Part shown: positions 532 through 1,643 of the stretch, one piece after another
Numbering within the stretch: the first letter of the stretch is position 1
How the letters are laid out: every line of letters starts with the position of its first letter
From: Lachnospiraceae bacterium
GTDB taxonomy: Bacteria > Bacillota > Clostridia > Lachnospirales > Lachnospiraceae
Direction of reading: 5' to 3'
Assembly (NCBI GenBank): GCA_024696825.1
Contig: JAILGL010000088.1
Location: forward strand, 1-37,650
DNA length: 37,650 nucleotides
Translations under genes and position numbers: made by a program
The notes under the pieces: generated by a model
Databases searched by the model: none
What the model was told of the DNA's origin: nothing
What the model saw: the letters and a program-made list of their open reading frames with translations, nothing else

Positions 532-560
532 TTGACGGTATAACTTTATAAGGTTATAAT
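532..560 (+). promoter_or_regulatory. Sigma-A-type promoter for the two small genes
   Basis: TTGACG (532-537), a 17-base spacer and a consensus TATAAT (555-560) lie about 110 bases before the gene at 669. The leader between them is very AT-rich, with no other recognisable signal. Confidence 0.75.
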
Positions 561-668: not shown

Positions 669-959
669 ATGACAAATACAAACAGAAAGACAGAAATAAA
701 CAATATCGTATCACGTATCCTTAAAAGTAAAGACAAGGATTGGATTACAGAAATCTACGCAACAAAAGCTAGTATAAAGGACGGTAACGTTCAGGATGAC
801 GTCGTTATTTCAGTTTGTTGCGATCCAAACTTTAAAAATACCGACCTTTTCGAAGTATTCTCCAACATCGAAAGAGATAATCATTCTTTTTCACTTTTCA
901 TTTTCGCCGAGCCGGATATGATGGATAGGGAATATGGTATTGTTCTCTGGAAGAGGTAA
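669..959 (+). CDS. Small protein of unknown function, nucleotidyltransferase-like C-terminus
   Basis: I do not recognise this 96-aa protein with confidence. It is soluble and charged, with no signal peptide or membrane segment. The start is supported by TAGGAGA at 653-659. The core has a hydrophobic strand (VVISVCCDP, about residues 44-52) after a DD pair, and the C-terminus (REYGIVLWKR) resembles the closing strand of MNT-type minimal nucleotidyltransferases, which often end in a REGVVLYE-like string. The catalytic GSxARG...DxD motif of that family is not visible, so if it is related it is degenerate. It sits 4 bases before a HEPN-like gene with which it must be co-transcribed. MNT and HEPN proteins commonly occur as toxin-antitoxin-like pairs, which makes the pairing suggestive rather than proven. 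Confidence 0.6.
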   Translation: MTNTNRKTEINNIVSRILKSKDKDWITEIYATKASIKDGNVQDDVVISVCCDPNFKNTDLFEVFSNIERDNHSFSLFIFAEPDMMDREYGIVLWKR

Positions 960-963
960 AAAA

Positions 964-1458
964 ATGAACATACTACAACATCTTATCGACGAAATTAATA
1001 AGAAAAGCGATCCTTTAGAAAACCATTATTTTATTCACGCTTTTTCTGCGCTTGAAGCTCTTAACAGGGTTGATAAAAACAACTTTTGTTATGATGATGT
1101 TAGTCGCGCAGTATACACTTTGGAAAGACTTTACAAAGGATTTTTATATGCCGCACAGGAAAATCTTGGCTGGTATCGGGTCCCAGACACACAATTTCTT
1201 ACACAGCAGCACGATCTTTCTGTGTTGTTTAAAGAAATTATGAACTGTTCTCCGTATGTTTTTCCTAGGCAGAATCGATATGAGTGGGAAGAAACCCAAC
1301 AGTTTCTAAAAGACCTTAGTAACGCTTGTTTCGAGTCTAGATATACTACATATCCGACTTATGAAGAATTTGATTCTATTCGTAAATTTGTAAATTATCA
1401 GAAGAAAATTATCGAAACATTTATTAAGTCTGGAGGTCTTGAGGAAACAGACGAATAG
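964..1458 (+). CDS. HEPN-domain-like protein
   Basis: This 164-aa, largely helical soluble protein follows the previous gene after 4 bases. I chose ATG 964, with AGAGG at 952-956, over an in-frame ATG at 934 that lies inside the upstream gene. Helix-rich segments, a QHDLSVLFKEI stretch at residues 82-92 and ESRYTTYP at 124-131 match the layout of the PF05168-type HEPN family (HdL...L and aRYp near the C-terminal helix). The RNase signature R-x4-6-H of toxic HEPN proteins is not seen after R126, so ribonuclease activity is doubtful. It could be the antitoxin-like or scaffold half of a pair, or a remnant from an accessory island. A strong terminator follows at 1584, so the two genes form a closed unit. 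Confidence 0.6.
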   Translation: MNILQHLIDEINKKSDPLENHYFIHAFSALEALNRVDKNNFCYDDVSRAVYTLERLYKGFLYAAQENLGWYRVPDTQFLTQQHDLSVLFKEIMNCSPYVFPRQNRYEWEETQQFLKDLSNACFESRYTTYPTYEEFDSIRKFVNYQKKIIETFIKSGGLEETDE

Positions 1459-1583
1459 GATATGCGAGAAGATTATTAAAGGTCGTCTTATCGAAATAAG
1501 AGAAAATAAACTCAAGTTATAAAGAGGATAGCAAAAAAAATATTGCAAATATTTTGGAATAGCAAATACCAAATAAAAAACAA

Positions 1584-1643
1584 GAGAGTAACTATTGCAT
1601 ACCTCTTATCAAGAGGATAATGCATAAGGTTACTCTCTTTTTT
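1584..1643 (+). terminator. Long bipartite terminator after the HEPN-like gene
   Basis: GAGAGTAAC (1584-1592) pairs with GTTACTCTC (1629-1637), the middle TTGCAT region pairs partly with ATGCAT, and CCTCTT (1602-1607) pairs with AAGAGG (1611-1616). Six T residues follow. It lies 125 bases after the stop codon. Confidence 0.85.

Follow-up and report, generated by a model that had tools for sequence, protein, structure and literature searches.

The stretch of DNA analysed here (the window, 37,650 nucleotides) carries near its start a compact unit of two genes, P0001 and P0002, together with a promoter-like site and an intrinsic terminator (Table 1). Both open reading frames described in the first-pass annotation, as well as the 4-base gap between the P0001 stop and the P0002 start, were found intact. 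The P0002 frame is already open at position 934, and the ATG at 964 is provided with a GAGG-type ribosome site. The codon log-likelihood was highest in the annotated frames (0.20 and 0.07 bits per codon, versus -0.34 and -0.33 in shuffles), and an open frame of at least 164 codons was observed in only 1 of 2000 Markov-random stretches of 900 nt. The promoter (here a promoter-like site) and the long terminator that had been attributed to the unit were likewise recovered, the latter folding at -28 kcal/mol in the segment 1570-1650 (z -7.2), with none of the shuffles being equally stable. An inverted repeat, TATAAC (539-544) and GTTATA (553-558), read by eye within the promoter-like site, forms a dyad that could possibly serve as an operator. 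It was also noted on first pass that the MNT catalytic motif and the HEPN R-x4-6-H motif were not visible, and motif scans found neither GSx10DxD in P0001 nor Rx4-6H in P0002.

Table 1. Coordinates of the gene pair and its flanking signals in the window.
Feature	Position	Strand	Description
P0001 ORF	669..959	+	96 aa; candidate antitoxin; ribosome site AGGAGA upstream
P0002 ORF	964..1458	+	164 aa from ATG at 964; most likely HEPN-T (PF05168-type); candidate toxin
Promoter-like site	532..560	+	TTGACG-17-TATAAT, 11/12 matches
Intrinsic terminator	1582..1643 (about)	+	Long hairpin, then TTTTTT

P0002 most likely belongs to the PF05168 (HEPN-T, "Class II") group of HEPN proteins. In Pfam, it matched PF05168 with an E-value of 0.0075 and 16.9 bits, under the curated cut-off of 22. 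When profiles of PF05168 relatives from the same bacterial family were used, P0002 was outscored by 8 of 20000 shuffles (28 sequences) and by 5 of 20000 (13 sequences), these being the best figures picked out of six groupings; the other groupings of the same relatives were weaker (33, 153 and 240 of 20000, and 90 of 10000 shuffles). Alignment with 16 relatives revealed that P0002 keeps E54-x3-K58, H83 and R126-Y127, in which the histidine aligned with H83 is invariant in all 16 and R126-Y127 falls on the R(K)-Y positions. According to Anantharaman et al. (2013; PMC3710099), HEPN-T proteins typically lack the H of Rx4-6H, with the R retained, and have a second strongly conserved His located upstream. 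This signature, consisting of E-x3-[KR], the upstream conserved His and the Arg of the lost Rx4-6H motif, was found in P0002. A regular expression for it was too loose, matching 6 of 124 controls, and in pairwise global alignment with HEPNs 8 of 149 controls did as well as P0002. The 2020 HepT/MntA paper (PMC7641770) placed PF05168/PF01909 pairs in Class II, whose HEPNs are without Rx4HxY. Since the PF05168 group as a rule lacks the motif, its absence from P0002 is normal and not a sign of decay. In this way, the HEPN-like character assigned to the second protein on first pass was upheld by the Pfam match, by the retained group residues and by the profiles of its own group, which placed it above nearly all shuffles. 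The degenerate HEPN active site, in turn, was a misreading, as PF05168 HEPNs have an alternative conserved His that P0002 retains.

Structural models of P0001 and P0002 were built from single sequences, lest an alignment impose the expected fold. The P0002 model was all-helical, with low confidence (pLDDT 41.8), and of the Foldseek matches listed, the one that superposed best on it was 7bxo_F, the S. oneidensis toxin (HepT) chain (TM 0.55 by target, rmsd 5.0 Å, E 3.5), a likeness that may lend weak support to an HEPN fold. Close relatives of P0002 were found neither in the remainder of its own genome, in 397 genomes of the family and in 391 genomes of the class, nor among genome contigs, viral contigs, plasmids and phages. 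The matches at E 0.005-0.02 in the class genomes lay inside unrelated long proteins and were as many as chance predicts, and a PADLOC match to Csx19 (E 0.0074) was also judged to be due to chance.

A PF05168 HEPN match was present in 118 of the 397 family genomes. Among 88 HEPN ORFs inspected, a protein with intact GSx10DxD was found directly upstream in 77 (47 of 50 plus 30 of 38), which is no population estimate, as the sample was partly score-selected. The 11 exceptions comprised truncated pieces, HEPN without MNT, a different type, of 218 aa, and fusions 429-454 aa long; in none of them did a small motif-less partner, itself intact, accompany an intact HEPN. P0001 is thus unusual, because the upstream partners carry the intact motif in so large a part of this sample. 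The first-pass annotation had made its reading depend on conservation of the pair in other genomes: the exact pair was not recovered in the collections searched, whereas the general gene arrangement was conserved. Four loci of related genomes (L094, L097, L112 and L113) held visibly decayed MNT/HEPN genes and provided a yardstick for decay. Two long proteins from different genera, of 454 aa (L096, 1522-2886) and 429 aa (L116, 1540-2829), carried a C-terminal PF05168-type HEPN domain preceded by an unfamiliar N-terminal part.

The nature of P0001 is less clear-cut. The MNT HMMs tried on it, built from MNTs neighbouring HEPN genes, gave no significant result, since 667, 1618 and 6555 of 20000 and 1801 of 10000 shuffles scored equal or better. 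In global alignment with MNTs, P0001 ranked above 249 of 250 control fragments, these controls being pieces of longer proteins and not small alpha/beta domains, so that shared architecture may explain part of the result. When P0001 and its only clear relative, P0003 (see below), were compared by hhalign with two MNT sets, the alignments were collinear and full length (P 0.001-0.003, probability 10-19%); the overall range of probabilities against MNTs was 2-19%. Furthermore, the C-terminal strand GIVLWKR resembles EGIVIWKKN of the MNT at L048. The unguided P0001 model displayed an H-E-E-H-E-E order with pLDDT 60, ending in two strands without a helix, and Foldseek placed it closest to circularly permuted ribosomal protein S6 (E 0.0055), the top 50 matches containing no MNT. 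Altogether, kinship with MNTs is plausible and descent from an MNT is only weakly supported. Thus, the nucleotidyltransferase-like protein with a degenerate site proposed on first pass stands in part, as the absence of the motif is real and unusual, while the MNT identity is not established. Foldseek of the P0001 model against viral models gave nothing significant, and a pattern scan found no relatives in viral or genome contigs. Weak matches to PBP4/S13 were judged to be chance, and those in L003 and L125-L137 were not counted as relatives, L130 and L133 being ACT-domain proteins. The L003 match (1423-1947; E 0.02) is a 174-aa protein from the same genus, which adjoins a dynamin-like GTPase gene.

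P0003 (G086:C25) was the one clear relative of P0001 recovered in a six-frame search of the 397 family genomes (E 2e-13, 36% identity), and its host belongs to another genus. The core of P0001 common to both proteins comprises I26-T-E-I-Y, S35, G39, D52-P-x-F, N57-T, E81-P-D83 and K95-R96, with the shared patterns ITEIY, S-x3-G, DP-x-F-x-NT, IF-x-EPD and KR. The motif scan did not find GSx10DxD in P0003, which carries NGSIRQG at the position of the MNT GSYARG, and there was no significant match to MNT profiles, as with P0001. The P0003 gene is equipped with a ribosome site of its own, shows a terminator-like end and is present in only one of nine genomes of its genus; no relatives were found in plasmids, phages or viral contigs. 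Because P0003, from another genus, is also without the motif, the motif-less form predates the P0001/P0002 locus, which argues against recent decay. The possibility of a decayed system, left open on first pass, became unlikely on this ground, and the conserved pattern suggests that the motif-less form has apparently been maintained. There is no HEPN gene beside P0003 in its genome, and this solo placement weakens the tie of P0001-type genes to HEPN.

Among known systems, the Class II HEPN/MNT pairs (PF05168 plus PF01909; PMC7641770) are like P0001/P0002 in gene order, sizes and spacing, and their HEPNs share with P0002 the lack of Rx4HxY and the presence of E-x3-K, the upstream His and R-Y. 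However, their partner has GSx10DxD, which is conserved across both HEPN/MNT classes (PMC7641770) and is missing from P0001. The type VII HepT/MntA system (S. oneidensis SO_3166/SO_3165, Class I) displays the same two-gene layout with a small upstream partner, and the P0002 model is weakly like its HepT chain 7bxo_F, but it has Rx4HxY in the toxin and the AMP-transfer motif in the partner, neither of which occurs in P0002/P0001. In the L. pneumophila HEPN-MNT system (PMC11586414), the short MNT is devoid of the C-terminal alpha4 helix, and the low-confidence P0001 model is also helix-less at its end; unlike P0001, that MNT keeps GSx10DxD and AMPylates the toxin. Since the defining partner motif is absent, P0001/P0002 cannot be filed as Class II HEPN/MNT or type VII, although the pair may work like either module.

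The reading proposed here, whose chances we regard as evenly balanced, is that the pair constitutes a variant toxin-antitoxin system of the Class II HEPN/MNT kind, in which P0002 would be an RNA-directed toxin and P0001 would neutralise it by binding, not by AMPylation. P0002 probably cuts or binds RNA through an alternative site made up of His83, Arg126-Tyr127 and Glu54, and free P0002 would slow growth. P0001, placed in the antitoxin slot directly upstream and presumably co-produced with P0002, would neutralise it through direct contact, since it has no residues for AMP transfer. In the gene order, P0001 fills the slot of the small upstream MNT seen at HEPN genes of the family. The catalytically dead MntA of S. 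oneidensis still binds HepT and neutralises less well (PMC7641770); therefore, control by binding alone is possible and would need a stronger complex here. More tentatively, P0001 and P0003 may form a small antitoxin family, derived from a dead MNT line or representing a new ferredoxin-like fold, that acts at this locus only by binding, with HEPN uncoupled from AMP transfer. A natural pair whose partner is without the AMP-transfer motif offers a test of whether AMP transfer is required for the control of Class II HEPNs or binding is enough.

The main rival, which we hold to be rather unlikely, is that a partner of another fold replaced the MNT, P0001 being a non-MNT small alpha/beta (ferredoxin-like) protein that took over as partner of an HEPN-T toxin. 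Such a replacement would fit the absence of GSx10DxD, the non-significant MNT profiles and the unguided helix-strand-strand-helix-strand-strand model with its permuted S6 match, and the P0001+P0003 profile twice picked ACT-domain proteins, at chance level. However, the confidence of that model is just 60, the global alignment statistics and the C-terminal GIVLWKR favour MNT kinship, and both the gene order and the near-MNT length are those expected of MNT pairs. It is improbable that P0002 is a non-toxic RNA-binding or sensor HEPN, domesticated together with P0001 as its regulatory partner: inactive HEPNs have a precedent in MtlR (PMC3710099) and P0002 is without Rx4-6H, but it retains the alternative His/Arg/Glu set of HEPN-T, and its sporadic distribution and placement beside tRNA-end repeats are atypical for a house-keeping function.

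That the locus is a decayed leftover of an ordinary MNT/HEPN pair seems very unlikely. The MNT motif is indeed missing from P0001 and decayed pairs do exist in the family; yet those loci are visibly truncated, whereas here both frames run to full length and have coding-like codon use, ribosome sites, a promoter-like site and a terminator are in place, and the motif-less pattern is kept at 36% identity in another genus. Hardly any more credence, if not slightly less, is given to P0001 and P0002 being chance neighbours with unrelated jobs, to which the solo P0003 gene and the lack of P0002 relatives that could reveal co-occurrence would be congenial; against this stand the 4-base gap, the single promoter-like site ahead of the pair and single terminator behind it, and the near-universal presence of a small upstream partner at HEPN-T genes.

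Upstream of the pair, near the start of the window, lie tandem fragments of a tRNA-Leu 3' end (113-141, 285-303 and 350-368), in repeat units of about 65 nt accompanied by a 31-nt repeat (214-244 and 402-432). An intact tRNA-Ser/tRNA-Leu locus, situated on a different contig of this genome, is followed downstream by the same repeats (L076, 1848-2370). These tRNA-Leu end repeats are reminiscent of the E. coli tyrT (rtT) repeats; alternatively, they might represent stacked integration sites. ARAGORN called a tRNA-Arg(TCT) at 57-135, the last part of which is the tRNA-Leu 3' end, so that this call is probably either spurious or a hybrid formed where an element has its border. The GC skew in the first 2 kb is mostly 0 to 0.17, versus 0.25-0.30 further on. 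These features fit an accessory, candidate mobile region at a tRNA end, where the contig stops. Between the pair and a glycosyltransferase gene, the sequence at 1728-1876 and 1932-2008 carries two almost identical tandem repeats of 58 nt (AAATTTCC...) as well as an 11-nt repeat, TGATGAATTAC, in five copies that overlap.
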